This document shows, one piece after another, positions 1,457 through 58,174 of a DNA stretch of 64,000 bases. A program made the position numbers and the translations under genes. The stretch is from Chitinophaga vietnamensis (GTDB lineage Bacteria > Bacteroidota > Bacteroidia > Chitinophagales > Chitinophagaceae). The stretch spans positions 930,001 through 994,000 of the forward strand of contig NZ_CABHMS010000002.1 in NCBI RefSeq assembly GCF_902167635.1, read 5' to 3'. The number at the start of each line of letters is the position of its first letter. The stretch's first letter is position 1. The notes under the pieces are model-generated. The model was not told where the DNA came from and searched no databases. It saw only the letters and a list, made by a program, of their open reading frames with translations.

Positions 1457-1624
1457 ATGAAGCACACAAACAGCAAAAAACTGCAATTAGGAAAGATCAA
1501 AGTTGCCACCCTGAACCCTGCTGCCACTGCCAAGCAGCCTAATCAGTTCATTAGCAACTCCAGCTGCATGCACGTTTGCCCTACCATCTGCTCGCAGCGC
1601 TGCCCGACATTTGACTGCTTCTGA
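1457..1624 (+). CDS. class I lanthipeptide precursor peptide (orphan)
   Basis: 55 codons, ATG to TGA. The leader contains KKLQLGKIKVATLN at residues 7-20, which matches the KLxLxKxxIAxL leader that I know from Bacteroidota class I lanthipeptides. The rest is a short core-like segment with five cysteines (C37, C41, C45, C49, C54) and six serine/threonine residues (S33, S35, S36, T43, S46, T51), enough to form up to five thioether rings. It would be a precursor that a LanB dehydratase and LanC cyclase modify after leader recognition and a protease then matures. No LanB, LanC or dedicated transporter is encoded anywhere in this window. A TATATTTT sequence at 1425-1432 could be a -7 promoter element. 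The gene ends one base before a long inverted repeat, so a truncated 3' end cannot be excluded. The leader match makes the family call good; the ring pattern is inference. Confidence 0.78.
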   Translation: MKHTNSKKLQLGKIKVATLNPAATAKQPNQFISNSSCMHVCPTICSQRCPTFDCF

Positions 1625-1874: not shown

Positions 1875-2468
1875 TTGCTCCACGATAATGAAAAGGATCT
1901 GTTGCTCTCCATTGCCAACGGAGATGAGCGATGCTTCCAGGTGCTTGTAACAAGGCACTGGCCGCAGGTGTATGGCACCGCCCTCCGGCTTACGCGCTCG
2001 CCGGAACAAGCCAGGGACCTGACACAAGATATCTTCATCAAATTATGGAGCCATCGCGCGCAATTGCCCGCAGTGGAGAATGTACCTGTCTTCATCTATG
2101 TATGTGCACGTAATCTCATCATGGATCACCTCCGCAAAAAAGTGCTGCATACTGATAATATCGACTCACTGATCGACCAGTTGGCTGACACGCCTTTCAG
2201 CAATGCGCAGTCGGGACTGGAATACAAAGAACTCGAAAATGTACTGATGCGCGCCATCGAACACCTGCCGGAAAAGGTGCGGGAAGTATTTGTGCTGCAC
2301 CGCTTCAAAGGGATGAGCCACCAGCAGATTGCAAAGCAGCTGAATATTTCGGTGGTCAGCTCCCAGACCTATATCGTCCGTGCCTTGAGAAGCATACGGG
2401 AGTACCTGCAACGCCATACAGAAATTGTTTTTGCCCTGCTGTTGCTGCTTTCAGGGCCTTTTCAATAA
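1875..2468 (+). CDS. ECF RNA polymerase sigma factor (SusCD-associated)
   Basis: 197 residues with the normal two-domain ECF layout. Region 2 is at about residues 10-85 (FQVLVTRHWPQVYGTALRLT, then QARDLTQDIFIKLW and ARNLIMDHLRKK), and region 4 is at about 125-180 (LPEKVREVFVLHRF, then MSHQQIAKQLNISVVSSQTY). The C-terminus is hydrophobic (FALLLLLSG), as is common in Bacteroidota ECF factors paired with FecR. No ATG is available: the frame is closed by TAA at 1860-1862, leaving TTG at 1875 as the best start. The downstream FecR anti-sigma factor presumably holds it at the membrane until the SusC receptor signals substrate. It would then transcribe the following import genes. Confidence 0.9.
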   Translation: MLHDNEKDLLLSIANGDERCFQVLVTRHWPQVYGTALRLTRSPEQARDLTQDIFIKLWSHRAQLPAVENVPVFIYVCARNLIMDHLRKKVLHTDNIDSLIDQLADTPFSNAQSGLEYKELENVLMRAIEHLPEKVREVFVLHRFKGMSHQQIAKQLNISVVSSQTYIVRALRSIREYLQRHTEIVFALLLLLSGPFQ

Positions 2469-2544
2469 TTTTTTAAATTTTACTGTCTTACCCCCGGTCA
2501 TGCTTCCGTCCTTATGTATGGAAGGCCGATAATTCCACTGTGAT

Positions 2545-3723
2545 ATGTCTGATACCACTTTCGAAACATTATTCAAAGGCTATATGAATGGCACGCTGGA
2601 TGCCGAAGGTATCCGCCGTTTCCGGGCGATGGCCTTGCAAAGGGAATACCAGCAACAGCTGTCGCAATTGCTGGAGGCGGCTTTCAGCGATCCGGCCTAT
2701 ATAGAGCGGGGAGATGTGGATGCCGCCGAGATGGCCCGGGAGATCACCGCAAAGATCCGCCAGCAGGATGCCGCGATCGAGGAACTGCGCGCACCACGTA
2801 AGCCGCTGCTGCTCCGTTTCTGGGCGCCTTATGCCGCCGCAGCGCTGCTCTTTCTGCTGGTGGCTATAGGTACTTTGCTATGGCTGCCCATGAAACGCCG
2901 CGCTGTGCGCACTGCCGAACCGCCTGCATTGGCCATGATCACAAGACCCACGCTCACGCTGGGCGATGGCTCCAGCATCGCGCTTGATAGCCTCGCCAAT
3001 GGTACCATCGCACAGCAGAACCATACCAGCATCGTGAAGCAAGGCAACGGCCAGCTGGCTTACCAGGCCAGCGGCAGCGATAGCGGCCTGTTGTTCAATA
3101 CCCTGCAAACGCCGCCCGGTACCACCTGGCAGATCACCCTGCCCGATGGCTCACGGGTATGGCTAAACGCTTCTTCCGCCATCCGCTATCCTGCTGCCTT
3201 CACGGGCAAAAACAGGAGCGTGGGCCTCACCGGCGAAGCCTTCTTTGATATCGTGAAAGATGATAACAAACCCTTCATCGTCAACGCCAAAAATGTACAG
3301 ACGCAGGTGCTCGGCACCGCCTTCAACGTGATGGCCTATCCTGATGAAGAGAGCGTGAACACCACGCTGGTACAAGGTTCCGTGAAAGTGAACAGCCGCC
3401 TCTTACAAGCCGGCGAACAGGCGCAGGTGAACAAAGAGGGCGGTCTCCTCATCACCCGGCCCAGCCTGGAAGAGATACTCGGATGGAAGAACGGAGAGTT
3501 CTATTTCCGCAACACCAATATCCGCAATATCATGCGCGAAGTAGCGCGCTGGTATGATGTAGACGTGAAGTATGAAGGCGATATGTCGGAGATCACCATG
3601 TCGGGCATCGTTTCCAGAACGGCTGAAATCACACAGTTGCTGAAAGCATTAGAAATGACCAAAATCGTACGGTTCAGGATAAACGGGCGAACAATTACTG
3701 TCTTGCCTTACAAGGCCGGCTGA
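2545..3723 (+). CDS. FecR family anti-sigma factor
   Basis: 392 residues. A cytoplasmic N-terminal segment of about 90 residues is followed by one membrane helix (YAAAALLFLLVAIGTLLW, about 98-116). The periplasmic FecR domain follows at about 195-290 (LPDGSRVWLNASSAIRYP, then VGLTGEAFFDI and VLGTAFNV). A DUF4974 domain lies at about 320-390 (FRNTNIRNIMREVARWYDV). The protein would bind the sigma factor encoded 76 bases upstream through its N-terminus and the N-terminal signalling domain of the SusC receptor through its periplasmic part, so transmitting the presence of substrate. Domain order and length are ordinary for the family. Confidence 0.92.
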   Translation: MSDTTFETLFKGYMNGTLDAEGIRRFRAMALQREYQQQLSQLLEAAFSDPAYIERGDVDAAEMAREITAKIRQQDAAIEELRAPRKPLLLRFWAPYAAAALLFLLVAIGTLLWLPMKRRAVRTAEPPALAMITRPTLTLGDGSSIALDSLANGTIAQQNHTSIVKQGNGQLAYQASGSDSGLLFNTLQTPPGTTWQITLPDGSRVWLNASSAIRYPAAFTGKNRSVGLTGEAFFDIVKDDNKPFIVNAKNVQTQVLGTAFNVMAYPDEESVNTTLVQGSVKVNSRLLQAGEQAQVNKEGGLLITRPSLEEILGWKNGEFYFRNTNIRNIMREVARWYDVDVKYEGDMSEITMSGIVSRTAEITQLLKALEMTKIVRFRINGRTITVLPYKAG

Positions 3724-3822
3724 TCATTATTTTTTTAATTCGGAAAAGACTGCTGAGAACCGCCGGAGGCGCCGCCGGCAGGGCATCCTATGCAGTGATG
3801 AAAAACAGGTTTCCACGTTGTT

Positions 3823-6800
3823 ATGATTGCTTCATGTAAAAAAAATCCACGACTGAAAAATATGAAATTCTTCCTGACATGGTTGCTGGCCGCGGCATTG
3901 CTGCTCACAGGCCCGCTGGCCTATGCACAAAAAGTTTCCGTGGCGGTAAAGAATATGCCGCTGGAAAAAGTATTCTCCCTGCTCAAACAGCAAACGGGCT
4001 ATTCCTTCATCTGGCGCGGCGAACAACTGCCGTCGTCTTTAAAAGTCACACTTGATTACAAGAACGCGCCTTTACAACAGGTGCTCGACGCCTGCCTCGA
4101 AGGCCTTCCACTCACTTATGAGATCACCGACAAGATCGTGGTGATCACCAGGAAAGAAAATGCACCAAAAGAAAATCTGCAAACCACCAAAATGGCGGTG
4201 AACGGTATGATCATGGACGAAAAGGGCGCTCCGCTGCCAGGAGTAAGCATCCGCGTAAAAGGCACTACCACCGGCGTTACTACCGATGGCAATGGCAATT
4301 ACTCCATCAGCGTGCCTTCAGAGAACAGCGTGCTGCAATGCTCTTATGTAGGCTTCGAATCCCGCGAGATACCTGTGGCCGGCCAGCGTACGATCAACAT
4401 CGTGCTGAAACAAAAGAGCGCTTCGCTGAACGACCTGGTAGTAATAGGTTATGGCGTACAATCTAAAAAGAACATGACCTCTTCCGTATCGTCGATCAAG
4501 GGCAGCGAGCTGACCGGCATCGCCGTAACCAGCCTGGACGCTGCATTGCAGGGCAAGGCGCCCGGCGTGCAGGTGGTACAGAACTCCGGCGCTCCCGGCG
4601 ATGAAACGTATATCCGTATCCGTGGTAACGGCTCCCTCTTCGGGGAGAACAGGCCGCTGTATGTGATCGATGGCGTACCGATGAGTAATCTCCCGGCCGC
4701 GCAGTATGGCATCTCCGGCGATGGACAAAGGATCGCGACCACCAATAACATCAACCCGAATGATATACAGTCGGTAGAGATATTGAAAGATGCCGCCGCC
4801 ACCGCCATCTACGGCTCCCGCGGGGCAAATGGCGTAGTGCTCATCACCACCAAAAGAGGAGCGGAAGGCAAGTCGAGATTTAATTTCAGCATGTACACCG
4901 GCGTGGCCAATATCCCGAAACGCCTGCCATTGCTGAGTGGCGACCAGTTCGTGGACCTCTTCAACGAATCCCGCACCAATGCCAACCTGCCGCTTGATCC
5001 GGCCATCGTGAAAACAGGCCGTAATACTGATTGGCAGGATGCCATCTTCAGAAATGCGCCGGTATCGGATTATAACATCTCTGTATCTGGCGGTACGCCT
5101 AAAACATCCCACTACGTATCACTGGGCTATCTCGATCAAACAGGTACCATCGTGGGCGTTCAACACTATAAACGTTTCAATGGCCGTGTGAACTTCGATT
5201 TTGCCGCTACCGACAAACTCAAAATAGGCGTGAACCTCACCGGGGTGCACAGCATCAACAACCGTATGGACAATAGCTTCTCCGGACAATCTGTACTCGC
5301 GCTGGCATTGATCGAAAATCCGAATGACCCGATCTATAATCCTAACGGTAGCTACTATACGGACCCTAACCGCCACTGGACCAACCCGGTGATGATCGCC
5401 AACAACCTGCGATTTCAGTCGATCGTGGATAGTTATATCGGCAACGTGTATGGCGAATACACCATCCTGCCTGGCCTGAAATTCAGGACCAGCTTTGGTT
5501 TCGATAACCAGCATGTAACCGACGACCGCTATCAGTCCAAACTGGTGAACAACGGAACTGCCGCCAGCGGCTTTGTATCTGTGTTCTCTCAATTCCTCTG
5601 GATCAATGAAAATACTTTGTCGTATGCGCCGGAGTTGAAAGGGAAACATAAATTGACGATCCTGCTGGGCGAAAGCTCACAGGAGGCGGCTGTGCGCAGG
5701 ATCGGCGTTTCCGGCAATACCAATTCTACCGATATCATACAGGCGGTGACGGGCTTCACTACTTTGTCGTCGCCGCTGGATTACCGCTCGCAATGGGGCC
5801 TGGTATCTTATTTCGGCAGGGCTTCTTATAACTATGGCGATCGTTACCTGCTGGAAGGCGTGCTGCGCACAGATGGTTCGTCACGCTTCGGCGCCAATAA
5901 AAAATATGGCTTCTTTCCTTCCATATCAGCGGGCTGGCGTGTGATCAATGAATCTTTCATGAAAGGACAGCATATTTTCACCGACCTGAAACTCCGCGGC
6001 AGCGTGGGGGTTACGGGTAATAACGAAGGATTGGGTAATGACTTCCCTTCACTTGCTACCTATTCTACCGGGTACAATTACGGTAATGAAGCGGGCATTG
6101 CTGCTACCTCTTTATCGAACCGCGACCTGAGCTGGGAAGCTACCACGGCTACCAACCTTGCCCTGGATATGTCTTTCCTCGATAACCGCATCAACGTAAC
6201 AGCGGAAGTATACCGCAAGGTCACCAACCGCCTCATCTTCAAGCTGGACCTGCCTTATACGTCGGGCTTCTTCCGTACCAATGGCGCAAATATCGGGCAG
6301 CTGATGAACAAAGGCCTGGAGATCGGCATCAATACAGAGAATATCCGCGGCGCCTTTACCTGGAACACGAATTTCAATTTATACTTCAACCGCAACAAGA
6401 TTACGAGCTTACCTGAAACGGTGGCAGGAGATCCCTCCAGCTCCGATTTTACTGAAAGTTTGCCTGGCTCTTTCAATACCAGTTTGCCTACCAGCATTTT
6501 TCGTGTAGGTGAGCCCGTTGGGTCGTTCTTTGGTTATCGTAACAAAGGCGTGGACCCGGCTACAGGAAATATGATCTATGATGATATTAATAAAGATGGC
6601 AAGATCACGGCAGCAGACCGGGTGATCCTTGGCAATGCCTTACCCGATTTCACAGGCGGCCTCACCAATACATTCGGCTACAAAGGTTTTGATCTGAGTT
6701 TCTTCTGGTACTGGTCGTATGGTAACAAGGTGTACAACCAAACCCGCAGCATGCTGGAACGCATGAGCAGTTACAATAACGGTGACGCCAACACGCTGAG

Positions 6801-7158
6801 AAGATGGACGGCCGCCAATACCCATACAGACGTGCCCAAGGCGGTTTTCAACGATCCAGTTACGCCGGGCAGTTTAACGAACGGAGAAGTATCGCAGCGC
6901 TTTGTAGAAGATGGTTCTTTCCTGCGGATGAAGAATATCACCTTCGGTTATTCCCTGCCTGCCGCCTGGCTCAAACATGTAAAGATCAGCAGTGCGAGGG
7001 TATATGTGAGCGCGCAAAATCTCTTCCTGATCACCAACTATTCCGGTTATGATCCGGAATCACAGAACCAGTCTGTGAAGAACTCGCAACTGGGTATCGA
7101 CTGGGCCGTACAGCCGCAGCCACGCACATTCCTGGCCGGTTTAAACGTGAATTTCTAA
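3823..7158 (+). CDS. SusC/RagA TonB-linked outer-membrane receptor with STN signalling domain
   Basis: 1,111 residues from 3823; ATG at 3862 is an alternative that puts the signal peptide (MKFFLTWLLAAALLLTGPLAYAQ) at the very start. In order: an STN (secretin/TonB N-terminal) domain at about 40-110 that contacts FecR, a carboxypeptidase-regulatory-like domain at about 125-205 (GMIMDEKGAPLPGVSIRVKG), a plug with NDLVVIGYGVQ at its start and AAATAIYGSRGANGVVLITT near 325, then a long beta-barrel ending in aromatic-rich FLAGLNVNF. It forms the TonB-driven pore of a SusCD importer for an oligosaccharide or peptide ligand. The STN domain and the sigma/FecR pair upstream point to ligand-dependent autoregulation. 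Ligand unknown. Confidence 0.95.
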   Translation: MIASCKKNPRLKNMKFFLTWLLAAALLLTGPLAYAQKVSVAVKNMPLEKVFSLLKQQTGYSFIWRGEQLPSSLKVTLDYKNAPLQQVLDACLEGLPLTYEITDKIVVITRKENAPKENLQTTKMAVNGMIMDEKGAPLPGVSIRVKGTTTGVTTDGNGNYSISVPSENSVLQCSYVGFESREIPVAGQRTINIVLKQKSASLNDLVVIGYGVQSKKNMTSSVSSIKGSELTGIAVTSLDAALQGKAPGVQVVQNSGAPGDETYIRIRGNGSLFGENRPLYVIDGVPMSNLPAAQYGISGDGQRIATTNNINPNDIQSVEILKDAAATAIYGSRGANGVVLITTKRGAEGKSRFNFSMYTGVANIPKRLPLLSGDQFVDLFNESRTNANLPLDPAIVKTGRNTDWQDAIFRNAPVSDYNISVSGGTPKTSHYVSLGYLDQTGTIVGVQHYKRFNGRVNFDFAATDKLKIGVNLTGVHSINNRMDNSFSGQSVLALALIENPNDPIYNPNGSYYTDPNRHWTNPVMIANNLRFQSIVDSYIGNVYGEYTILPGLKFRTSFGFDNQHVTDDRYQSKLVNNGTAASGFVSVFSQFLWINENTLSYAPELKGKHKLTILLGESSQEAAVRRIGVSGNTNSTDIIQAVTGFTTLSSPLDYRSQWGLVSYFGRASYNYGDRYLLEGVLRTDGSSRFGANKKYGFFPSISAGWRVINESFMKGQHIFTDLKLRGSVGVTGNNEGLGNDFPSLATYSTGYNYGNEAGIAATSLSNRDLSWEATTATNLALDMSFLDNRINVTAEVYRKVTNRLIFKLDLPYTSGFFRTNGANIGQLMNKGLEIGINTENIRGAFTWNTNFNLYFNRNKITSLPETVAGDPSSSDFTESLPGSFNTSLPTSIFRVGEPVGSFFGYRNKGVDPATGNMIYDDINKDGKITAADRVILGNALPDFTGGLTNTFGYKGFDLSFFWYWSYGNKVYNQTRSMLERMSSYNNGDANTLRRWTAANTHTDVPKAVFNDPVTPGSLTNGEVSQRFVEDGSFLRMKNITFGYSLPAAWLKHVKISSARVYVSAQNLFLITNYSGYDPESQNQSVKNSQLGIDWAVQPQPRTFLAGLNVNF

Positions 7159-7168
7159 AAGCAGCACC

Positions 7169-8557
7169 ATGAAAAGGACCACATTATTTTTGATAGCATT
7201 GGCATTTGTTTCCTGCACAAAAGTGCTGAACCAGGTGCCTGAATATACGATCGCAGACGAGAATTTCTGGCAAACCGGCAACGACGCCGAGAGCGCCGCA
7301 GTGGGCATCTATCCGGCAGTACAGAGCATTGCCATGCAGTTCCCGGTGGCATTTGACGCCGCCTCCGATGCGGCTACTGCCTTGCAGATCAACTATGCGC
7401 CTTTTAGTCAGCATGGCATCCCGGTGGATAATCCCGTGGTGGCCTCGTACTGGCAGAATAACTATACCGGTATCGGTCGGGCCAACGATCTGCTGAAACA
7501 TGTGCCTGGCATGCGCGACAGCCTCTTCATCGGTAACCGCAAACAGGAGCTGATTGGCGAAGCCCATTTTTTGAGGGCCTACTTTTATTACAACCTGGTA
7601 AAAGCATTTGGCGCGGTGCCTTTGGTGCTGGAGCCATATACTTCTTTCAATGCCGACTTCACCATCGCGCGTACTGCTGTAGATTCCGTTTACAAACAGA
7701 TCATTGCCGATCTGCGCATCGCTGAAACCAGCTTGCCGCCTACGTTTTCCGCTGTGGTAGATACCCGTGGCCGTGCCTCGCAGGGCGGCGCCAAAGCTTT
7801 GCTGGCAAAGGTATACCTGAGTGTGAAAAATTATGATTCTGCCGCTGCAAAAGCATTGGATGTGATCAACAGCCCGGTATACACATTGGCGAGCGGCGCC
7901 GCTGCTTACAGCAATATGTTTTCTGTGAATGGCAAGAACAGTTCCGAAGCTATTTTTGAAATACAATATGTCAATGCCGCGCAACAAAGCAATGGGCTTT
8001 TCAGTTTGTATATGCCCGTAAACGGTATCCCGGCTGCAAAGCAGCAGGGTAGCTATCAGATTGCACCTACCACGAAGATCATCAACCTGTACGAACCGGG
8101 AGATATCCGCAAGGCGGCGGCTTTAGGCATGAGCACCGGCAATCCCGCCGTGCCTTATGTCAACAAGTACGGCCGCCTTACCAGTGGTACCGAACCAGAT
8201 ATCATTGCATTACGACTGGCGGATATTATGCTGGTGCGTGCAGAAGCCTTGAATAGTCTTGGCCGCCAGACGGAAGCTATCGATCTTTTGAACAGGATTC
8301 GCCGTCGTGCCTTTGCCTTGCCGCTGGATGCGCCTTCTGCGCATGACTTCCCCGCCAATGGTGAAACAGATCTCGCATTAGCGATCGAGAACGAGCGTTT
8401 CAAAGAGCTGGCTTTTGAAGGCCATCGTTTCTATGACCTGGTACGTACCGGCAGAGCAAACGCCGTACTGGGCATTAGCAATGATCAAACGCTGTGGCCT
8501 ATACCTTTACGCGAGATCGGACGTAACCCGCGGCTGGTGCAGAATCATGGTTATTAA
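7169..8557 (+). CDS. SusD/RagB family substrate-binding lipoprotein
   Basis: 462 residues, starting 10 bases after susC. A lipoprotein signal (MKRTTLFLIALAFVSC) ends in the lipidated cysteine. The body has the SusD features: FWQTGNDAESAAVGIYPAVQ near residue 30, RAYFYYNLVKAFGAVPLV near 140, RASQGGAKALLAKVYL near 200 (TPR-like helices), and the C-terminal block ENERFKELAFEGHRFYDLVRTGRA with WPIPLREIGRNP. It would sit as a lid on the SusC pore and capture ligand at the cell surface. It is somewhat short (typical members are 480-600 residues) but ends normally. The repeat array begins ten bases after its stop codon. Confidence 0.94.
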   Translation: MKRTTLFLIALAFVSCTKVLNQVPEYTIADENFWQTGNDAESAAVGIYPAVQSIAMQFPVAFDAASDAATALQINYAPFSQHGIPVDNPVVASYWQNNYTGIGRANDLLKHVPGMRDSLFIGNRKQELIGEAHFLRAYFYYNLVKAFGAVPLVLEPYTSFNADFTIARTAVDSVYKQIIADLRIAETSLPPTFSAVVDTRGRASQGGAKALLAKVYLSVKNYDSAAAKALDVINSPVYTLASGAAAYSNMFSVNGKNSSEAIFEIQYVNAAQQSNGLFSLYMPVNGIPAAKQQGSYQIAPTTKIINLYEPGDIRKAAALGMSTGNPAVPYVNKYGRLTSGTEPDIIALRLADIMLVRAEALNSLGRQTEAIDLLNRIRRRAFALPLDAPSAHDFPANGETDLALAIENERFKELAFEGHRFYDLVRTGRANAVLGISNDQTLWPIPLREIGRNPRLVQNHGY

Positions 8558-8566
8558 CCCGCCGGG

Positions 8567-9696
8567 CTACCAATATATCGCCCCTACGGGGCGAGGTTGG
8601 CGGTATCCTGCATTTCGGCTACCAATATTATGCCCCTACGGGGCAATATGTTGGTAACAAAACATTTGATCCGCCATATTGCGACCCATCGGGGCGATAT
8701 ATTGGTAGCAAAACATTTGATCCGCCATATTACGCCCATCGGGGCGATATATTGGTAGCAAAACATTTTGATCCGCCATATTGCGCCCCATCGGGGCGAT
8801 ATATTGGTAGCAAAACATTTTGATCCGCCATATTGCGCCCCATCGGGGCGATATATTGGTAGTAGCAAAACATTTTGATCCGCCATATTAGGCCCCATCG
8901 GGGGCGATATATTGGTAGCAAAACATTTGATCCGCCATATTGCGCCCCATCGGGGCGATATATTGGTAGCAAAACATTTTGATCCGCCATATTGCGCCCC
9001 ATCGGGGCGATATATTGGTAGCAAAACATTTGATCCGCCATATTACGCCCCATCGGGGCGATATATTGGTAGCAAAACATTTGATCCGCCATATTACGCC
9101 CATCGGGGCGATATATTGGTAGTAGCAAAACATTTTGATCCGCCATATTAGGCCCCATCGGGGGCGATATATTGGTAGCAAAACATTTGATCCGCCATGT
9201 TACGCCCCATCGGGGCGATATATTGGTAGCAAAACATTTTAATCCGCCATATTACGCCCCATCGGGGCGATATATTGGTAGCAAAACATTTTAATCCGCC
9301 ATATTACGCCCCATCGGGGCGATATATTGGTAGCAAAACATTTTGATCCGCCATATTACGCCCCATCGGGGCGATATATTGGTAGCAAAACATTTTGATC
9401 CGCCACATTGCGCCCCATCGGGGCGATATATTGGTAGCAAAACATTTTAATCCGCCATATTACGCCCCATCGGGGCGATATATTGGTAGCGAAACATTTG
9501 ATCCGCCATATTACGCCCATCGGGGCGATATATTGGTAGCAAAACATTTTAATCCGCCATGTTACGCCCCATCGGGGGCGATATATTGGTAGCAAAACAT
9601 TTTAATCCGCCATATTGCGCCCCATCGGGGCGATATATTGGTAGCAAAACATTTTGATCCGCCACATTGCGCCCCGTAGGGGCGATATATTGGTAG
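8567..9696. repeat. array of about 20 copies of a 52-bp palindromic repeat with perfect inverted ends
   Basis: The unit is about 52 bp: GATCCGCCATATT, then a hairpin core GCGCCCCATCGGGGCG, then ATATATTGGTAGC and AAAACATTTT. I count 20 copies of the CCGCCAT/CCGCCAC segment, plus two variant hairpins with the core GCCCCTACGGGGC at the left end. Bases 8567-8593 and 9670-9696 are exact reverse complements of each other (27 bp, beginning CTACCAATATATCGCCCC). About 100 bp at 8841-8938 is repeated at 9101-9198, an offset of five units. There are no unique spacers, so it is not CRISPR, and open frames across it are artefacts of the repeat. It fills the 1.2 kb gap between the SusD gene and the beta-propeller gene; no gene is supported here. 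Confidence 0.95.
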
Positions 9697-9768
9697 GGGT
9701 GAAATAACAAAATCTTCATATCGCCATTTTAAATACGAAATCTTTTTATCAGTCTAAATTTTAAAAAG

Positions 9769-11916
9769 ATGAAAAAAATTCTATCCCTCTATTTGTTGCT
9801 GACAGCGTCGGCAAGTACTATCTATGCCCAGTACACTACTACCTGGGTGGGAAATACCTATCCCGATGTAGCCAACCACGTAGGCAACTGCGCCCGTTCC
9901 ATGTGGGTATCGCCGGAAGGCGTGGTATATACGGCCTCCCTCTGGGATGAAAAGGCACGTAACATTGGTATCTATCAAAATGGCGCTGTTCTCGGTTCGA
10001 TGGGCGGCAACAAAGACTCGCAAGGCAGTGCCATCGGTGGCGATGACACTTATATTTTTACGGCACAGCAGGCGCCCAACAGCGGCAAGATCGGGCGTTA
10101 CAACCGCGCTACCAAAGTGCGCGATCTGCTCTTTGCCGCCAGCGCCGGCACCGTGGATGCGGTGCGTGGTATCGCCGTATCCGCCGGCCGCGTGTTTGCG
10201 ACAGATTCTGCGGGCAACCGTGTTGCGGTGTTCACCACCGGCGGCGTATTTATCCGCCAATGGCCGGTGGCCAATCCCGGCGCTATTGCGGTAGACAGCT
10301 CCGGTAATGTATGGGTAGCGCAACCTGCCGCCGGCGCCGTGCTGCAATTCGATTCTACCGGCGTGCCAGGTGTTAGCATCGCGATGGGCGCCAGCGCAAG
10401 GCCTTCGGCCTTGTATGCAGACAGCGCCCGCGGCGAACTGCTGATCGGCGACCAGGGACCTGACATGAATATCAAAATTTACAATAACCTAACGGGAACG
10501 CCTGTACTGAGTAGCACCTTCGGCGATACCGGCGGTTATCTTAATGAAGTGACTGGCATCCGTGGCCAGACCGGCCCTAAACGTTTCACCCGCGTAGTGG
10601 GCATCGGACGTGATAAAGCCGGCAATCTTTATGTGCTCAACAATCCCTGGGGCGGCACCTGGGACCTGGGCCGCAATGGCGCTACCGACATCCATTGTTA
10701 CAATGGCGCCGGCAATTTACAATGGACCCTGCAAGCCCTCAACTTTGAAGGCAATGCTTCCGCCGATGCCGGCACCGATGGTCAGGACCTCTACAGCGGT
10801 AATATCATTTATACTTACAACGGTACCGATGGCGGCGTGTACAAAGCCAATACGGTTGATCCTTACCGCTATCCGCAGGATGCCCGCATCCAGTGGAGCG
10901 ATCATTCCCGTGGCGAACATTTCGGGCATCTCGCGAATGTAGGCGGTCATAAGATACTAGTGGCCTGTAACCAGAATGCAGACATCTTCTATACTTATTA
11001 TTTCAACCCCGCCACAGACGGCTATATCGCTATCCCCGGCGACACCATTTCCAAAGTGCGCAATGGCTTCTGCCTGGATTCTCTCGGCGGCCTCTGGGTT
11101 TCGCTGGATAAAACCAATGCAATCCAATATTATCCGCTCACCGGTTTCGCGGCCAATGGCAAACCAATCTGGGGGCCGGTGGTATCTACGCCAACACCTG
11201 CGTCTATTGCCAGGTTGAACCGCATTGAATACATTCCCGCGAGCGATGTGATGGTGCTGGCCGGCGGTAATACCGACTGGACGCTGATAGGCAACAGGAT
11301 CGAAGTATACCGCGGCTGGCTGGCCGGCAACCGCACGCCCAACCTGGTGATCACGCTGAGCCGCGCACAGGCCAAGTCCATGTCTGCCGCAGGCAATTAT
11401 CTTTTTGTAGGTTATTATGCTATTCCTGATATCGACGTGTTTGATCTGACTACCGGTACGCTGGTGCTCACCATGACCTCCAGCAACGCCGTGTATGTAG
11501 GCAACGACGTGGATTCTGAATACGGCATCAAAGCGTATCATCGCAGCAATGGAGAATATTACATCACCAAAGATGATTACAATGGCAACAAGATCGTGCT
11601 GCATCGCTGGACGCCGGCAGTGGCGCCGGCGGCGGCCGACAGCATAGCGCATCCCGCAGCTACGGAGGCCAGGTTACTGGTATTTCCAAACCCCACGACT
11701 GATGTATTGCATATCACACTCAAACAAAGCAAGGTGCAGCAGTTGCGATGTAATATCTACGATCTCTCCGGTAAATTGATCAGCACTACACATCTGCAAA
11801 ATAACGGGCAGTTGCAGGTAGATGTAAGCCGTTTGCCCGTAAACGCTTATGTACTCATACTTTCAGACGCTGCCACCGGCAAGGTGGTAGGACAAAGAAA
11901 ATTTATCCGACAATAA
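9769..11916 (+). CDS. secreted beta-propeller protein with T9SS type A sorting domain
   Basis: 715 residues. A signal peptide (MKKILSLYLLLTASASTIYAQ) leads into repeated propeller-like blades of the NHL/SMP-30 kind, for example CARSMWVSPEGVVYTASLW, GAIAVDSSGNVWVAQP, VVGIGRDKAGNLYVLNNPWG and GFCLDSLGGLWVSLDKTN. The last 75 or so residues (LLVFPNPTTDVLHITL, then CNIYDLSGKLIST and ending GKVVGQRKFIRQ) are a type A T9SS sorting domain, so the protein is probably exported across the outer membrane and anchored or released. The glycosidase gene starts three bases after its stop codon, so the two are cotranscribed and may act on the same material. No catalytic motif recognised. Confidence 0.85.
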   Translation: MKKILSLYLLLTASASTIYAQYTTTWVGNTYPDVANHVGNCARSMWVSPEGVVYTASLWDEKARNIGIYQNGAVLGSMGGNKDSQGSAIGGDDTYIFTAQQAPNSGKIGRYNRATKVRDLLFAASAGTVDAVRGIAVSAGRVFATDSAGNRVAVFTTGGVFIRQWPVANPGAIAVDSSGNVWVAQPAAGAVLQFDSTGVPGVSIAMGASARPSALYADSARGELLIGDQGPDMNIKIYNNLTGTPVLSSTFGDTGGYLNEVTGIRGQTGPKRFTRVVGIGRDKAGNLYVLNNPWGGTWDLGRNGATDIHCYNGAGNLQWTLQALNFEGNASADAGTDGQDLYSGNIIYTYNGTDGGVYKANTVDPYRYPQDARIQWSDHSRGEHFGHLANVGGHKILVACNQNADIFYTYYFNPATDGYIAIPGDTISKVRNGFCLDSLGGLWVSLDKTNAIQYYPLTGFAANGKPIWGPVVSTPTPASIARLNRIEYIPASDVMVLAGGNTDWTLIGNRIEVYRGWLAGNRTPNLVITLSRAQAKSMSAAGNYLFVGYYAIPDIDVFDLTTGTLVLTMTSSNAVYVGNDVDSEYGIKAYHRSNGEYYITKDDYNGNKIVLHRWTPAVAPAAADSIAHPAATEARLLVFPNPTTDVLHITLKQSKVQQLRCNIYDLSGKLISTTHLQNNGQLQVDVSRLPVNAYVLILSDAATGKVVGQRKFIRQ

Positions 11917-11919
11917 TTT

Positions 11920-14900
11920 ATGAAGAGAGGTACCGGTATGCTGATGCTCGCGATGATCGTCAGTTTCAATAGCATGGCACAGATGAAAGCGCCACAGGAA
12001 TGGGTGAATTATGAACAGGTGTTTGGCGTGAAGAATAATCAGCGGCAATACGATTATGATGTAACGGTGATCCGTTCTTCCACGCACAGCAATGTGCTGT
12101 GGCCGGGAGAGCAGCCATCTTACACCTTACAGATAGTGAACCATCTCAAAGCGCCGCTGGTAGCCGATGGCAGGATAGACGTGATCAGCTATGGCACCCG
12201 CGGAAGGCCTGGTGATATATGGCTGCCCGAGGTGGTGAAATTAAAGGAGATAGCATCGATACCGGTAAAGATAAAGATAGCGGCAGATGGATATGTGAAC
12301 ATCGATCAGGCGCCGGAGATACCCGATACCTTTGGTGGTTATGCGCTGGTGATGGACCTCGGCCGCTATGGCCGTCGTTTGGTGACCAGCCTGGTGCGCA
12401 CTTATGCCGCCTCGCCCAAAAGGATACAGTATCCGAAGCAGTCGCTCGATGACATGGGCGCCGACTTCCTGCAACGTGTAGGCGTACAGGCGATACGTAT
12501 GGGCGTGGATTATACGCCTACTACCGCCGACGACTATACGCAAAAGATGCAGGAGATAGACCGTAAGCTGAAAGAGTACCAGTCGAAGAACATCACGGTA
12601 TTGCTGATGTTCGGCGCTGGCAGCGCTCCGCAGCCGCTGGGCCGGCCGCGCGCTTTCCTCGACTCGGCACATGTGATGAAGAAGACCAAACAGGATTATG
12701 TGTGGCTGCCTTCGTATGATGATGATTTCCGCCGTTTTGTAAACCGCCTCTGTACACAATACGGATGGCCCAAAGGGCCTGTAACAGCTGTGAGCTTATG
12801 GAATGAGCCATGGGAAGGACTTTCCATCTCCGGCTGGCAGGCTGATATTCCACGTTATCGCGAGATCTATAGAGCGATGGCAAACGCGGTACTGGATGCC
12901 CGGAAAACAGGAGCCGACGTGCTCGTAGGTGGCGGCGATTCCAATTCCAATGCCTGGGATAAACTCTTCGCAGATGGCAAGATGACCTTTCTACCCATCT
13001 TCGATTTTTGTTCTATTCATTACCAGGGAATTGAATCGCCGGCTATCTATCCGGAATGGATACAGCGGCAATCGCCCCGTGGCCGCGTGAAAATATGGGA
13101 CACCGAAAGCTGGGTGGGTAATACCGATGATCGTATAGGCCTCAGCGTAGCCACCTGCCGCTCCGCCGGATACGACCGCTCCATGGGCATTTACGCCGGA
13201 TATATGTACACCGGCGGCCGTGGCGGTGAACACTTCACGGTAAAAGAACGTACGCCATCCGGCATCAGGGAGATCGACCGCATACCTGATACCTGGTCGC
13301 CCGCTGCGGCCCTAGGCGCTGTGCAACACCTGGTAGGAGAGCGTAACTTCAAAACATTACTTTTTACCAAAGGACTGCCCTGGATCATGGTGTTCGATGG
13401 CGAACAAGCCGCGGATGACGGCACTGCCGTAGTGTGTGGAGATATTGGAGAAGCTTTCGGCCCGGAGCATGTGCTTTTCCGCAATGTGCGCGGCCTGTCT
13501 GAAATCGCGGCGAAGGAAAAGATCAGGGCCGCCATCGCCGCAGGAGCGCCGGTGAGCGATAGCCTGCAACAATTACTCAATAGCTGGCAGCCGCTGAGCG
13601 GGGGAGAGCTGACCCTGCCCGACGACTCACGGTTCCGGCTATACGATTTTTATGGCAACCGCATGCCGTCTGCCAATGGCCACCTGCGCGTTCCGCTCAA
13701 CAGTCAGGGATACTACCTGCGTACCGATGGCTCCAAAGGCTCGTTTGCCGCTTTGCTATCTGCCCTCAAAACCGCCCGCATCAAGGGTTATGAACCGGTA
13801 GAGATCATCCCTAGAGATATGACCGCCCGCATCAGCGAATCGCCGGTGATGCCGCTGCAACTCACGAATATCCTCAATCGTCCGATACAGGCGAAATTGC
13901 AGGTGTCCTTAGCCGGCCTGCAAACCGATGCACCGGCGAGTATTACACTGGCGCCGCATGAAACGAAAACCATCCCGGTGAAGATCACCGGCGGCACAGC
14001 CGCTGCCAACAATACCTATCATCTCCGTGTGCACCTCGATGCCGGCGCCGATGGCATCGCCGTACAGGAAGAAGATATGCATGTGAACACGATATCACGC
14101 TTACGCATATACGTAGATGGAAAATTAGACGACTGGGCAAGCGCCCTGCCGCAAACCGTGAGCAGCAAAGGCGCCGCGGTGGTGAGCCTGACCGAGGCGG
14201 CCTGGTATCCGTTTAAAAACTTTGATACCAAAGCTACCGGTTATGCCACCGGCTATTTCGCCTACGACGAACATAATTTTTACTTTGCCGCGAAAGTGGC
14301 CGACAGCACGCCGCATCCGGGCGCCTATCGTTTTGAGCAGCGCCCGGACGACGAGTTCTTTTATCCCGATACCGCCTATGCGATGGATATGCAGCGTGCC
14401 CTGCTCAGCAAGGAGAGCGCTGTGCCAGTCGCGATGCAGGACAGCTCCGCATTGCAACACCCGCAGGGCGATGGCCGTATCCTGCGCTATCTCGAAAACG
14501 GCGATAACACGAACAGCTTTGGCATTAGTTTGCAATTGCCGCCGGGCCGTGTTATGCAGGCAGCCCTGTACCTGCCCAACCTGCGCGTATCCGGTGCAGC
14601 GATGGAAGTGTATGACAGCAGCGGCCGGCAACTGTTGCAAAGGAATATCGGAAATCTCTGGAATGGCGCCTGGGAAGTGTTGCGCCTGTCAGGCAAAGTA
14701 CGTATCGTATTGCATAGCTATGGCTGGTGGTATACTGTTAAGCTCGGCGCCATACTGCTTGATGACTTGCCCGGCGAAGCCAGCGGCAATACTGCCTCTC
14801 TGATAAAAGAAGATTTCGACACGCGCGGCAACTGGAAAAACGTATATGGCCGCGCGGGATATTATTTTCCCGGCTTGGCCACACAACTGCCGTCCGGTGT

Positions 14901-15528
14901 GGCTTTGCTGCCATTGCAGGAAGAAGTGAAATGGCCATTGATATGGCCGGCAGGCGTGCGGCATTTCACTTATCAGAAGAATCCCGTTACGCCGGATAAT
15001 TCCGGTTTGGGTTATGCCTACGACAATGTGCTGCTGGCTTTCAACGTGCTGCCTGAAGGCCAGGATGGTATGCTGGCTTGTCCGCCCGGCACGATGCCGC
15101 GCTACACAGGATATAAATGCACTGATTACGAATACGCCCTCAATCCCGTAGCGGAGCGTTATGGCGGCGGAACGGAGATCTGGCGCCTGCTGGCGCCGGG
15201 CATGAACCGCAAACACTTTTTCCCGCGGCAGCCGAAGTCGGCACAGGAAGGTCCGGTGAAGAAGGGGCAGCTGGTTATCCGCCGTGAAGGCAACACGGTT
15301 ATCACCGAATGCGCCATCCCCTGGGAAGAGCTACCCGACGTGAAAGCCGCGCTGGATGCCGGTCGCCGCGTGAAGCTTTCCTTCCGTGTGAATGATAATG
15401 GCGCCCCTGGCAGCTGTATGGAACTGGCCAGGGACCGGAGTGTATCTAAACTGAATGCACGTGCCTTTCATCCTGACTGGAAAGTGCATTGGGCGAATGA
15501 GGTGGAGTTTGAGTTTGAGAAGAAATGA
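11920..15528 (+). CDS. large exported glycosidase-like protein (clan GH-A-type barrel, CBM9-like module)
   Basis: 1,202 residues with a signal peptide ending NSMAQ. An N-terminal beta domain (to about residue 150) precedes a TIM-barrel domain. There AVSLWNEPWEG places E296 as likely acid/base, and VKIWDTESWVGN places E396 as likely nucleophile, the WNEP/E pair of clan GH-A retaining glycosidases. CSIHYQG lies between them. Further on are beta-sandwich regions and, near residue 730, LRIYVDGKLDDW, followed by GYFAYDEHNFYFAAKVAD, which resembles CBM9-type carbohydrate-binding domains. A second such segment appears near the C-terminus (ITECAIPWEELP with LSFRVNDNG). It is translationally close to the propeller gene and lies downstream of a SusCD pair. 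I cannot place it in a numbered GH family; substrate unknown. No T9SS sorting domain was seen. Confidence 0.75.
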   Translation: MKRGTGMLMLAMIVSFNSMAQMKAPQEWVNYEQVFGVKNNQRQYDYDVTVIRSSTHSNVLWPGEQPSYTLQIVNHLKAPLVADGRIDVISYGTRGRPGDIWLPEVVKLKEIASIPVKIKIAADGYVNIDQAPEIPDTFGGYALVMDLGRYGRRLVTSLVRTYAASPKRIQYPKQSLDDMGADFLQRVGVQAIRMGVDYTPTTADDYTQKMQEIDRKLKEYQSKNITVLLMFGAGSAPQPLGRPRAFLDSAHVMKKTKQDYVWLPSYDDDFRRFVNRLCTQYGWPKGPVTAVSLWNEPWEGLSISGWQADIPRYREIYRAMANAVLDARKTGADVLVGGGDSNSNAWDKLFADGKMTFLPIFDFCSIHYQGIESPAIYPEWIQRQSPRGRVKIWDTESWVGNTDDRIGLSVATCRSAGYDRSMGIYAGYMYTGGRGGEHFTVKERTPSGIREIDRIPDTWSPAAALGAVQHLVGERNFKTLLFTKGLPWIMVFDGEQAADDGTAVVCGDIGEAFGPEHVLFRNVRGLSEIAAKEKIRAAIAAGAPVSDSLQQLLNSWQPLSGGELTLPDDSRFRLYDFYGNRMPSANGHLRVPLNSQGYYLRTDGSKGSFAALLSALKTARIKGYEPVEIIPRDMTARISESPVMPLQLTNILNRPIQAKLQVSLAGLQTDAPASITLAPHETKTIPVKITGGTAAANNTYHLRVHLDAGADGIAVQEEDMHVNTISRLRIYVDGKLDDWASALPQTVSSKGAAVVSLTEAAWYPFKNFDTKATGYATGYFAYDEHNFYFAAKVADSTPHPGAYRFEQRPDDEFFYPDTAYAMDMQRALLSKESAVPVAMQDSSALQHPQGDGRILRYLENGDNTNSFGISLQLPPGRVMQAALYLPNLRVSGAAMEVYDSSGRQLLQRNIGNLWNGAWEVLRLSGKVRIVLHSYGWWYTVKLGAILLDDLPGEASGNTASLIKEDFDTRGNWKNVYGRAGYYFPGLATQLPSGVALLPLQEEVKWPLIWPAGVRHFTYQKNPVTPDNSGLGYAYDNVLLAFNVLPEGQDGMLACPPGTMPRYTGYKCTDYEYALNPVAERYGGGTEIWRLLAPGMNRKHFFPRQPKSAQEGPVKKGQLVIRREGNTVITECAIPWEELPDVKAALDAGRRVKLSFRVNDNGAPGSCMELARDRSVSKLNARAFHPDWKVHWANEVEFEFEKK

Positions 15529-19467: not shown

Positions 19468-19491
19468 TAACAAAATCCCCGATTATTACTA

Positions 19492-19499
19492 TATCTTTG
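19492..19499 (+). promoter_or_regulatory. -7 promoter element upstream of the cobalamin riboswitch
   Basis: TATCTTTG is an exact match to the Bacteroidota -7 consensus TAnnTTTG. It lies just before the 5' end of the riboswitch aptamer, where the promoter should be. No convincing TTTG -33 element is found at the usual 19-base spacing. Confidence 0.55.
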
Positions 19500-19506
19500 C
19501 CGCGCA

Positions 19507-19678
19507 ATGGTTCGCTGGCGTCCATCCCGGATGCCGGTGATTAAAAGGGAACTCGGGTGCAAATCCCGGACAGTCCCGCTGCTGTAAGTCTCGCAAATGC
19601 ACAGGCCCTCATACAGGCCACTGTTGGTTTTCAATGGGAAGGCCGCCTGTCGCAGAGATAAGTCAGAATACCTGCCAT
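19507..19678 (+). promoter_or_regulatory. cobalamin (B12) riboswitch
   Basis: The segment contains the conserved core of a cobalamin aptamer in the right order. GCCGGTGATTAAAAGGGAA is followed by GGTGCAAATCCCGG and ACAGTCCCGCTGCTGTAA, then GGCCACTGTTGG, GGGAAGGCC and the B12 box AGTCAGAATACCTGCC at 19661-19676. It precedes a TonB-dependent receptor by about 135 bases. Adenosyl- or other cobalamin binding would lower expression of the uptake operon. CCTGCCAT at 19671-19678 can pair with ATGGCAGG at 19728-19735, a likely expression-platform helix that competes with the aptamer. Confidence 0.95.
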
Positions 19679-19812
19679 GCATGTTGGTTTTCGAAGCTTT
19701 CGTGGAATGAAGCTTGGAAATAATCATATGGCAGGCATGCCCTGCATACTTATTATTTCATATTGATCTTTCCTGAAACGAAGGCCGTTGATATTTTATC
19801 AAACCGGTTAGC

Positions 19813-21816
19813 ATGATGCGTTTCCATGAACGGGGATATTCGTTTATAAAAAAGGTCAGCGGCTTGTTGCTATTGGCCGCCACTGCACAGGCGCAGCAGC
19901 AAGACAGCCTGCAGCTCACACACCTGCGCGAAGTGTCGGTAACGGCGCCCCGCAGCGCCCGTGAGGTGATGCCGGGACAACAGCTTCAGGGCGCCACTTT
20001 ACAAAGACTCGGCAGCCAGTCGGTAGCTGATGCCATCCGTTTTTTCTCCGGTGTGCAGGTAAAAGATTATGGCGGTATCGGCGGCCTCAAAACCGTGGAT
20101 GTACGTGGCATGGGCACCAGTCACACGGGCGTATTCTACGATGGCATCCAGCTCGGCAACGCGCAGAACGGACAAATAGATCTCGGGAAATTCTCACTCG
20201 ATAATATGGAGTCCATCACGCTGTACAATGGCCAGAAGAGTAATGTGTTCCAGCCCGCGCGCGATTTCGCCGCTGCCAGCGCCATCTACCTCAGCTCCCT
20301 GAAACCGCATTTCGAAGAGGGCGTCCGCACGCACCTGAGAGGTACCCTGAAAACCGGCTCCTTCGGGCTTTTCAACCCCTCTTTGTTGTGGCAGCAACGC
20401 ATCAGCAAAAAGGTATCCGCCACGCTCAGCACCGAATGGGTAAATGCCAACGGGCGCTATAAATTCCGCTATAGCAAAAAAAATGGCTACGATACTACCG
20501 CCATCCGGCTGAATGGCGACGTCAACGCCGTGCGCGTGGAAGCAGGCCTCAACGGCGTGATCAACGGCGGCGAATGGAGCGGCAAAGCGTATTTTTATAA
20601 TGCCGAACACGGCCTCCCGGGATTTGTAGTGAACGGGGTTTTCGGGCATGTGGACCGGCAGTGGGACCGCGACATCTTCGTGCAGTCGAGCTTCCGCAAG
20701 GATATCAGCAAACATTACAGCCTGTTGCTGAATGCAAAATACGCTAACGACTATACGAGATATCTCGCTCCCGATTCCACCGCATTATACGTAGATAACC
20801 ACTACCGGCAGCAGGAAGTTTATTGCTCTGCCGCTAATCAGTTCACCATCACCTCCTGGTGGAATGTGGGGCTGTCGGCCGATTTCCAATGGAACCGCCT
20901 CGATGCCGACCTGGTGAACTTTGCCTATCCCCGCCGTTATACCACGCTGGTAGCCGCCGCTACTGCTATCAATCTTACGAAGTTCAGCGCCATGGCCAGT
21001 TTGCTCGGTACGGTGGTGAATGAAGACGTGCAACGCAAAGTGGGCGCGCCTTCACAGCAACAGCTTACGCCAGCCGTATTTGTGTCATGGCAGCCTTTCG
21101 GCCCCGCCTGGCGCCTGAAGGCTTTCTACAAGCGCATCTTCCGCATGCCCACATTTAATGATCTCTATTATTCAGAGATCGGCAATGCTTATCTCAACCC
21201 TGAATTTACTACGCAATACGACCTGGGCCTGTCCTGGAACAAAACTTTCACCGGCAAAATATTGCAGCAGCTGAACATAGAAACCGACGCTTATTACAAC
21301 CATGTTACCGACAAGATCGTGGCGATGCCCACGGTGAGCCAGTTCCGCTGGACGATGATGAACCTCGGCAAGGTAGAGATCAGAGGGGTAGATGTGAAAG
21401 CCGCTGCCGCCTGGCAGATCGCCAATGCTGTAACATTGAACACACGCCTCACTTATACGTACCAGCACGCACAGGATTTTACAGACCCTAAAAGCAGCTA
21501 TTATGGCGACCAGATATTATACATCCCCTGGCATAGCGGTTCCTTCATCCTCGGGGCGCTGTATGGCAAGTGGGACGCGAATTACAGCCTGATCTACACT
21601 GGCGAGCGGTATAACGGCAAAGCCAATATACCGGAAAATTATGTGCAGCCCTGGTACACCAGCGATATCGCTTTGGGGCGGCAACTGCAATGGCGTAAAA
21701 CCGCCATACGCCTCTGCGCTCAGGTCAATAATCTGTTCAATCAATATTACGATGTCGTGCTGAATTACCCGATGCCCGGCAGGAACTACAAGTTCATCTT
21801 CACTATCAATATCTGA
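19813..21816 (+). CDS. btuB: TonB-dependent cobalamin receptor (BtuB-type)
   Basis: 667 residues. A signal peptide ends about ATAQAQ. A TonB-box-like segment follows (LREVSVTAPRSAR). Next is a plug domain with LQRLGSQSVADAIRFFSGVQ, YGGIGGLKTVDVRGMG and HTGVFYDGIQLGNAQNGQIDLGKF, then a beta-barrel with RIFRMPTFNDLYYSEIGN, a typical barrel motif of siderophore and B12 receptors, ending in NYKFIFTINI. It lacks STN and carboxypeptidase-like domains, so it is not a SusC. The upstream cobalamin riboswitch and the two surface lipoproteins downstream identify it as the B12/cobamide importer of this operon. Confidence 0.9.
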   Translation: MMRFHERGYSFIKKVSGLLLLAATAQAQQQDSLQLTHLREVSVTAPRSAREVMPGQQLQGATLQRLGSQSVADAIRFFSGVQVKDYGGIGGLKTVDVRGMGTSHTGVFYDGIQLGNAQNGQIDLGKFSLDNMESITLYNGQKSNVFQPARDFAAASAIYLSSLKPHFEEGVRTHLRGTLKTGSFGLFNPSLLWQQRISKKVSATLSTEWVNANGRYKFRYSKKNGYDTTAIRLNGDVNAVRVEAGLNGVINGGEWSGKAYFYNAEHGLPGFVVNGVFGHVDRQWDRDIFVQSSFRKDISKHYSLLLNAKYANDYTRYLAPDSTALYVDNHYRQQEVYCSAANQFTITSWWNVGLSADFQWNRLDADLVNFAYPRRYTTLVAAATAINLTKFSAMASLLGTVVNEDVQRKVGAPSQQQLTPAVFVSWQPFGPAWRLKAFYKRIFRMPTFNDLYYSEIGNAYLNPEFTTQYDLGLSWNKTFTGKILQQLNIETDAYYNHVTDKIVAMPTVSQFRWTMMNLGKVEIRGVDVKAAAAWQIANAVTLNTRLTYTYQHAQDFTDPKSSYYGDQILYIPWHSGSFILGALYGKWDANYSLIYTGERYNGKANIPENYVQPWYTSDIALGRQLQWRKTAIRLCAQVNNLFNQYYDVVLNYPMPGRNYKFIFTINI

Positions 21817-21821
21817 AAATT

Positions 21822-22970: not shown

Positions 22971-22992
22971 TTATCAACACAAAAAATAAAAT

Positions 22993-58064: not shown

Positions 58065-58174
58065 ATTCTCACATTCTCACATTCTCACATTCTCACATTC
58101 TCACATTCTCACATTCTCACATTCTCACATTCTCACATTCTCACATTCTCACATTCTCACATTCTCACATTCTC
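58065..58174. repeat. octanucleotide tandem repeat (ATTCTCAC), about 14 copies
   Basis: ATTCTCAC repeats perfectly for about 110 bases (13.75 units). It lies upstream of the terpene synthase gene, about 355 bases before its start codon. Such repeats can change length by slippage. The next 355 bases, to 58529, are AT-rich and hold no gene I trust. Confidence 0.95.

Follow-up and report, generated by a model that had tools for sequence, protein, structure and literature searches.

A lanthipeptide precursor-like gene apart from modification enzymes

Which enzymes, if any, modify a lanthipeptide precursor that is encoded where no LanB or LanC gene adjoins it? The question is raised by a gene at positions 1457–1624 on the forward strand of the window, the 64,000-nucleotide (64 kb) stretch analysed here (C2:930001–994000), which comes from a Chitinophaga vietnamensis genome of 6.3 Mb in 15 contigs. 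Its 55 codons, followed by TGA, translate to MKHTNSKKLQLGKIKVATLNPAATAKQPNQFISNSSCMHVCPTICSQRCPTFDCF (55 aa). Residues 1–20, MKHTNSKKLQLGKIKVATLN (1457–1516), form the leader part and fit the LxLxKx5L motif through L9, L11, K13 and L19, in agreement with the Bacteroidota class I type assigned in the preliminary description. Residues 33–55, SNSSCMHVCPTICSQRCPTFDCF (1553–1621), form a putative core, delimited by the alignment of homologous copies discussed below. The composition reported earlier for this tail is accurate: the last 23 residues contain five cysteines (37, 41, 45, 49 and 54) with the spacing CxxxCxxxCxxxCxxxxC and six Ser/Thr residues (33, 35, 36, 43, 46 and 51). The peptide contains no GG anywhere, the feature by which double-glycine peptides exported by C39/PCAT transporters are recognised. 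It has the sequence features of a Bacteroidetes class I precursor, and adjacency to LanB and LanC, which is usual for such precursors and does not define them, is absent. Genome-wide searches with PF04738, PF14028, PF05147 and PF03412 place none of their matches inside the window, which bears out the earlier statement that the 64 kb hold no LanB, LanC or peptide transporter, transporters being covered in the scope of the C39 domain.

The frame is more than chance. A leave-one-out profile, made with 26 other leaders of its subtype and excluding the precursor itself, gives it 37.8 bits (E 1.3e-10); of the window's 1392 open frames the runner-up reaches 6.2 bits, and the top of 1629 frames in a reversed-window control 5.3 bits. 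The lanthipeptide leader models, proposed earlier as a check on this gene, give a divided answer: NF038153 (lant_leader_L1a, the NCBI class I lanthipeptide leader model) does match residues 1–22, at a score of 15.8 bits that lies under its cut-off of 22, an annotation threshold and no biochemical criterion. Because of this score, routine annotation would probably miss the gene. A Pfam search of the peptide found no match. Carriage on known plasmids or phages was considered and rejected: the peptide has no tblastn match in known plasmid and phage collections at E 0.01.

The leader subtype and the candidate enzymes in this genome

An alignment of 27 leaders from eight genomes (A1) defines the subtype to which this leader belongs. 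Its consensus is MKKxxxKKLxLGKIKxAxLS, with M1, K8, L9, L11 and L19 invariant in all 27; the subtype can be written as KKLxLGKIKVAxL[NS]. The aligned leaders match LxLxKx5L, the motif given for Bacteroidetes class I precursors by Walker et al. 2020 (PMC7268733). In a sample of the wider family spanning 101 genera, the subtype occurs in 2 of 244 genomes (E ≤ 1e-4), both among the five Chitinophaga genomes sampled, and so far it appears confined to Chitinophaga. Further leaders of this kind had been proposed as a target for a genome search, and nine precursor genes carry them at E ≤ 0.01: 1457–1624 itself, three in tandem on contig C7, single genes at C2:202 kb, C2:380 kb, C3:213 kb and C1:411 kb, and one in the C4 cluster. 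Eight of the nine, at six places, lie away from any LanB (more than 10 kb). The label "orphan" used earlier therefore does not describe a one-off. Within 60 nt upstream, half of the unlinked precursors (12 of 24), 9 of the 17 linked ones and 31 of 404 other ORF starts carry the A-rich pattern TAAA(A)(C/T)C; because the pattern was picked after looking, it is kept out of any evidence for co-regulation.

The two alternatives left by the preliminary description were service in trans by enzymes elsewhere or a relic, and a search for LanB and LanC had been named as a way to decide. Both enzymes are present elsewhere in the genome, as the first alternative anticipated, with four LanBs (C4:249 kb, C10:173 kb, C1:787 kb and C1:838 kb) and four places with LANC_like matches (C4:253 kb, C10:172 kb, C1:842 kb and C4:155 kb). 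The expectation of split LanB enzymes is excluded here, since all four carry Lant_dehydr_N and Lant_dehydr_C in a single open frame of 1045–1064 aa. The LANC_like match at C4:155 kb (L086:4714-7350) is part of an 878-aa RamC-type kinase-LanC protein that resembles a class III/IV lanthipeptide synthetase. At L076:6920-10063 and C1:786062 (L031), a LanB has no LANC_like match within ~50 kb, and just upstream of it a weak leader-like match (11.4 bits) falls in a Cys-free peptide; were this peptide its substrate, the product would have no lanthionine rings, because it has no cysteine.

The cluster at C4:249–255 kb contains LanB, LanC, a LuxR-type response regulator and one precursor of the subtype, MRKTSEKKLSLGKVKISKLN..., which adjoins LanB and LanC and whose leader resembles that of 1457–1624. 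The two loci are at least ~325 kb apart by contig coordinates, counting the ~76 kb that remain of C2 and the 249 kb of C4 that precede the LanB. PF04738 and PF14028 both lie in the single 1041-aa chain of the C4 LanB. This enzyme matches NisB (4wd9, 6m7y) and the lantibiotic dehydratase 5ehk, and retains RMSSRSTPYG, FFLRY, HIRIR and ERYG, which we take to be catalytic or substrate-binding motifs. The C4 LanC matches NisC and 8byk and retains WCYG and CHG, presumably its zinc ligands. To judge from these motifs, the cognate C4 LanB and LanC are intact in this genome. The C4 LanB is the presumed rather than the self-evident partner, since three other LanBs are present and the C10 leaders also fit LxLxK.

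Export and proteolysis would depend on genes outside the C4 cluster. Five places in the genome encode C39 domains, none of them in the window and none on contig C4; the C10 and C1:838 kb clusters combine C39 transporters with GG-ended leaders. Among class I lanthipeptides, paenilan is an example with an unlinked protease (PMC8960859). At a further locus (L083:880-5998), an ATP-grasp protein with an MvdD-type pre-ATP-grasp domain and a C39 transporter adjoin a peptide with the leader KKLDVRKMKIARL, possibly a graspetide-type locus that uses the lanthipeptide leader style.

Association of the leader subtype with one LanB type across Chitinophaga

LanBs were searched in 79 genus genomes at E ≤ 1e-60, with up to 10 candidates scored per genome, and were called C4-type at 46% or more identity to the C4 LanB, all others reaching at most 44%, a boundary set after the fact. 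So defined, a C4-type LanB is found in 48 of the 79 genomes, one in each. The leader subtype is found in 51 of the 79 (336 matches), and its distribution follows that of the enzyme: it is present in all 48 genomes with a C4-type LanB, in three of the eight with only other LanBs and in none of the 23 without a LanB match (Fisher P 2.4e-18, uncorrected for relatedness). When the eight genomes that contributed to A1 are removed, the figures are 40 of 40 versus 3 of 31 (P 1e-16, likewise uncorrected). Physical linkage gives the same picture. Of the 336 leader matches, 150 were listed: 95 of these have a C4-type LanB within 10 kb, 55 have no LanB at that distance, and none has only another LanB so close; every C4-type LanB (48/48) has a listed leader within 10 kb. 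The 55 unlinked leaders include seven from the three genomes that have the subtype without a C4-type LanB (G018, G061 and G030) and three whose distance to a C4-type LanB is 15.6–16.5 kb. Part of any low score of leaders beside other LanBs may stem from the construction of A1, which gathered leaders by their likeness to the peptide of 1457–1624.

These counts bear on the alternative that the gene is a real precursor read by another of the LanBs in this genome, at C10, C1:787 kb or C1:838 kb. Three more full-length LanBs are indeed at hand, C10 leaders such as SKKLLLKKDAIANLN share the LxLxK pattern, and the subtype occurs in G018, G030 and G061, where all LanBs are of other types. Set against this are the linkage counts, in which no listed leader keeps company with a LanB of another type alone, and the organisation of the C10 and C1:838 kb clusters, whose GG-ended leaders come with C39 transporters and escape A1 at E 0.01 in this genome. 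Reading by a LanB other than that of C4 is thus improbable, and it is still the best of the alternatives.

The exceptional genomes merit description in their own right. G018 (L132) and G061 (L133) have a LanC (52–53% identity), a LuxR (70–71%) and two subtype precursors, with no LanB in 19 kb at either locus; LanBs elsewhere in these two genomes are 41–44% identical to the C4 LanB. They are a possible natural case of a LanB supplied in trans. In G030, three of 16 leader matches were examined, and 19 kb around each contain no LanB or LanC match. A second conserved core, approximately PTYxGCSxxxKCxPP with variants, belongs to a precursor adjoining the C4-type LanB (L073, L089, L099, L101, L104, L164, L166, L167 and L170-L176).

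Conservation and selection in the core family

The preliminary description had made conservation of the frame in related genomes a point on which its reading could fall, and the frame is conserved. Homologous copies number 17, in 10 of 78 other Chitinophaga genomes (E ≤ 3e-8), with full-length homologues at E values down to 3e-16, and 13 loci, all labelled Chitinophaga, were retrieved when named genomes were searched by pattern with the core family. In an alignment of the 17 copies with the precursor itself (A2, 18 rows), M1, K2, K7, K8, L11, K15, S33, N34, S35, C41, T43, C45, S46 and C49 are invariant. Seven of the eight invariant core positions are Ser, Thr or Cys. C37 is present in 17 of the 18 copies and lost in one tandem copy of G029, the final cysteine is variable, and a variable stretch separates leader from core. 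The core SNSSCxHxCPTxCSxxC is kept across the 17 copies with few exceptions. NF038153 matches 7 of the 18 aligned members at E ≤ 1.

The copies differ in where they lie. Seven of the 17 (two in G012, three in G064 and two in G058) are 3.0–3.5 kb from a C4-type LanB, beside LanC and LuxR; the three copies of G029 are 15.6–16.5 kb from one; and the remaining seven are more than 1 Mb away or on another contig, which in draft assemblies gives no measured distance. Depending on the species, then, the same peptide is encoded inside the cluster or apart from it. Unlinked loci are syntenic within two groups, G059 with G040 and G014, and G045 with G049; the site of 1457–1624 is common to no other copy. 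No LanB or LanC lies within ~9 kb on either side of the unlinked copies in these five genomes.

Selection was assessed in 13 pairs of copies. The unlinked pair G059/G040 differs by 10 synonymous and no nonsynonymous changes (36 versus 126 sites), and G059/G014 and G040/G014 show seven and three, and eight and three, synonymous and nonsynonymous changes, respectively. G045/G049 has three of each (dN/dS 0.25), and values of 0.11 and 0.09 are obtained for G012/G064 and the G064 tandem pair, so that five close pairs besides G059/G040 fall between 0.09 and 0.25. Ratios are higher in the G029 tandem pair (0.55) and in G058/G012 (0.35). The precursor of 1457–1624 compared with one G029 copy gives 0.23 at a dS of 2.1; synonymous sites are saturated in four pairs, three of which involve this precursor, and the measure of selection accordingly rests on the homologues, the comparisons with 1457–1624 being near or past saturation. 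Because purifying selection acts on copies without LanB or LanC within ~9 kb, such unlinked copies are maintained, and the gene at 1457–1624 is itself real and probably maintained.

The genomic neighbourhood

Downstream of the precursor lie two blocks of context genes on the forward strand that are not part of a lanthipeptide pathway. The first is an operon at 1875–15528 with an ECF sigma factor and FecR, identified by Pfam, and four genes named by reading as SusC, SusD, NHL-like and glycosidase-like. The second, at 19813–24162, comprises a TonB-receptor-like gene and two further genes, also named by reading. Within the window, 4.3 kb containing other genes separates the two blocks. Elsewhere in the genus both stand near lanthipeptide enzymes: the operon is collinear in G059, G040, G014 and G060 (56–82% identity), where a C4-type LanB, precursors, LanC and LuxR follow 1.3–3.5 kb past it, and homologues of the three genes of the second block (61–69% identity) come right after LanC-LuxR in G018 and G061. 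From this arrangement, we infer that the region once housed a LanB-LanC cluster and then lost it. No convincing remnant of LanB, LanC or LuxR is found in the window (top E 0.026, for LuxR).

Such a loss is what favours the relic alternative, by which the gene was left behind when the cluster moved away and is no longer made or modified: the cluster occupies this region in four relatives and is missing here. The peptide is no simple leftover, however, for a leader of the subtype is absent upstream of the sigma gene in G059, G040, G014 and G060, and at six more FecR loci, so the place of 1457–1624 is not simply inherited. The frame is also intact, the residues conserved in homologues are present, purifying selection acts on unlinked homologous copies, five of them without LanB or LanC within ~9 kb and all measured on homologues only, and this genome still holds an intact cognate LanB and LanC. 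A relic, the second option of the preliminary description, is therefore very improbable. Least credible of all, to the point of being negligible, is a small Cys-rich secreted or metal-binding peptide with an incidental likeness to a leader, since the regular CxxxC spacing that could bind metal and the NF038153 score under its cut-off have to be weighed against close homologues in three LanB-LanC clusters, conservation of Ser/Thr to the same degree as Cys, and the near-exact co-occurrence of the leader subtype with one LanB type.

Several repeats and an RNA element were also observed. A near-perfect palindrome (1626–1819) follows straight after the stop codon of the precursor, with a predicted RNA fold of −142.4 kcal/mol. 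Its 80 matches correspond to at least 40 distinct places in the genome (40 of 133 candidates scored), nearly all on both strands, and it is best described as a palindromic intergenic repeat, or a MITE-like one, which could serve as a terminator here. A part for the hairpin in the system itself was considered and rejected, given its occurrence at 40 or more places genome-wide and the absence of any listed place beside another unlinked precursor. An Rfam search of the hairpin at a permissive E-value gave 16 matches, all under the gathering score, 11 of them to microRNA models. An intergenic tandem array with a 52-bp unit (20.6 copies, 93% matches) lies at 8625–9696, and translated repeats of similar appearance accompany the precursor loci on C7 and C10 (L077:8385-8939 and L074:5629-5988). 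A cobalamin riboswitch (RF00174, 97.2 bits) is located at 19491–19692, ahead of the TonB-receptor-like gene at 19813. Finally, a perfect 8-bp tandem repeat, ATTCTCAC, in 13.8 copies is found at 58065–58174, upstream of an ORF at 58530–59486.

A proposed mode of action and its relation to known systems

Taken on the sequence evidence above, the gene at 1457–1624 is very probably a functional class I lanthipeptide precursor (LanA) whose leader the C4 enzymes, a one-chain LanB and a LanC, read in trans. The leader would be recognised by these two enzymes from another contig. The C4 LanB would then glutamylate the conserved Ser/Thr residues of SNSSCxHxCPTxCSxxC and carry out elimination, and LanC would add the conserved cysteines, giving several small thioether rings. 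Release would fall to an unlinked protease and exporter, and the product may perhaps act as an antimicrobial or a signal.

The closest published parallels are the Bacteroidetes precursors of Walker et al. 2020, which, as far as that survey's account goes, are alike in leader motif, Ser/Thr/Cys-rich core and the use of LanB and LanC. Unlike them, 1457–1624 is on another contig than its presumed enzymes, has no GG and carries a leader whose subtype goes with a single LanB type. In gene layout it compares with the prochlorosins and synechococsins, in which one enzyme (ProcM, SyncM) acts on numerous precursors that share a conserved leader and vary in their cores, part of the precursor genes being scattered over the genome (PMC10783134). 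By analogy, the nine leaders found here, eight of them more than 10 kb from any LanB, have a prochlorosin-like layout, with a single shared enzyme as the presumed counterpart. The systems differ in their components, since prochlorosins, as described in that source, are products of picocyanobacteria in which one LanM modifies precursors of the Nif11 family, whereas the linked enzymes in Chitinophaga are class I LanB and LanC and the precursor has no Pfam match. Pinensins are class I lanthipeptides of the same genus. Their LanB is split in two proteins, in contrast to the one-chain C4 LanB. The PedA15 peptides of Pedobacter lusitanus are also Bacteroidota class I lanthipeptides; a review describes cleavage of PedA15.2 with LahT150, a protease for GG-type leaders, whereas the peptide of 1457–1624 has no GG. 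This background draws on parts of PMC7268733, PMC10239826, PMC9248904, PMC12328550, PMC9576775, PMC10783134, PMC9993889, PMC10352776 and PMC8960859. Among titles and the beginnings of abstracts, with subscription papers (Pedobacter, pinensin originals) outside this scope, no report of scattered class I precursors in Chitinophaga was recognised; an earlier description is possible.

Lanthipeptide mining commonly looks beside LanC genes and thus misses scattered class I precursors by design. Walker et al. capped the distance between LanC gene and precursor, and the survey itself concedes, for prochlorosins, that scattered precursors are missed (PMC7268733). For the genus as a whole, the balance of evidence leans towards a genus-specific, prochlorosin-like class I combinatorial system, in which one LanB-LanC pair with LuxR would modify a fleet of precursors in trans, the precursor genes moving independently of the enzymes, with cores such as SNSSCxHxCPTxCSxxC and APTYTGCS held by selection and others freely diversified. 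If this is true, the pair would be a natural class I enzyme set that tolerates a broad range of cores and relies on a leader both short and defined, and whether one class I LanB-LanC pair serves unlinked genes, as ProcM does in class II, becomes an approachable question. Chitinophaga species with a C4-type LanB would then make more lanthipeptides than counts of their clusters show.
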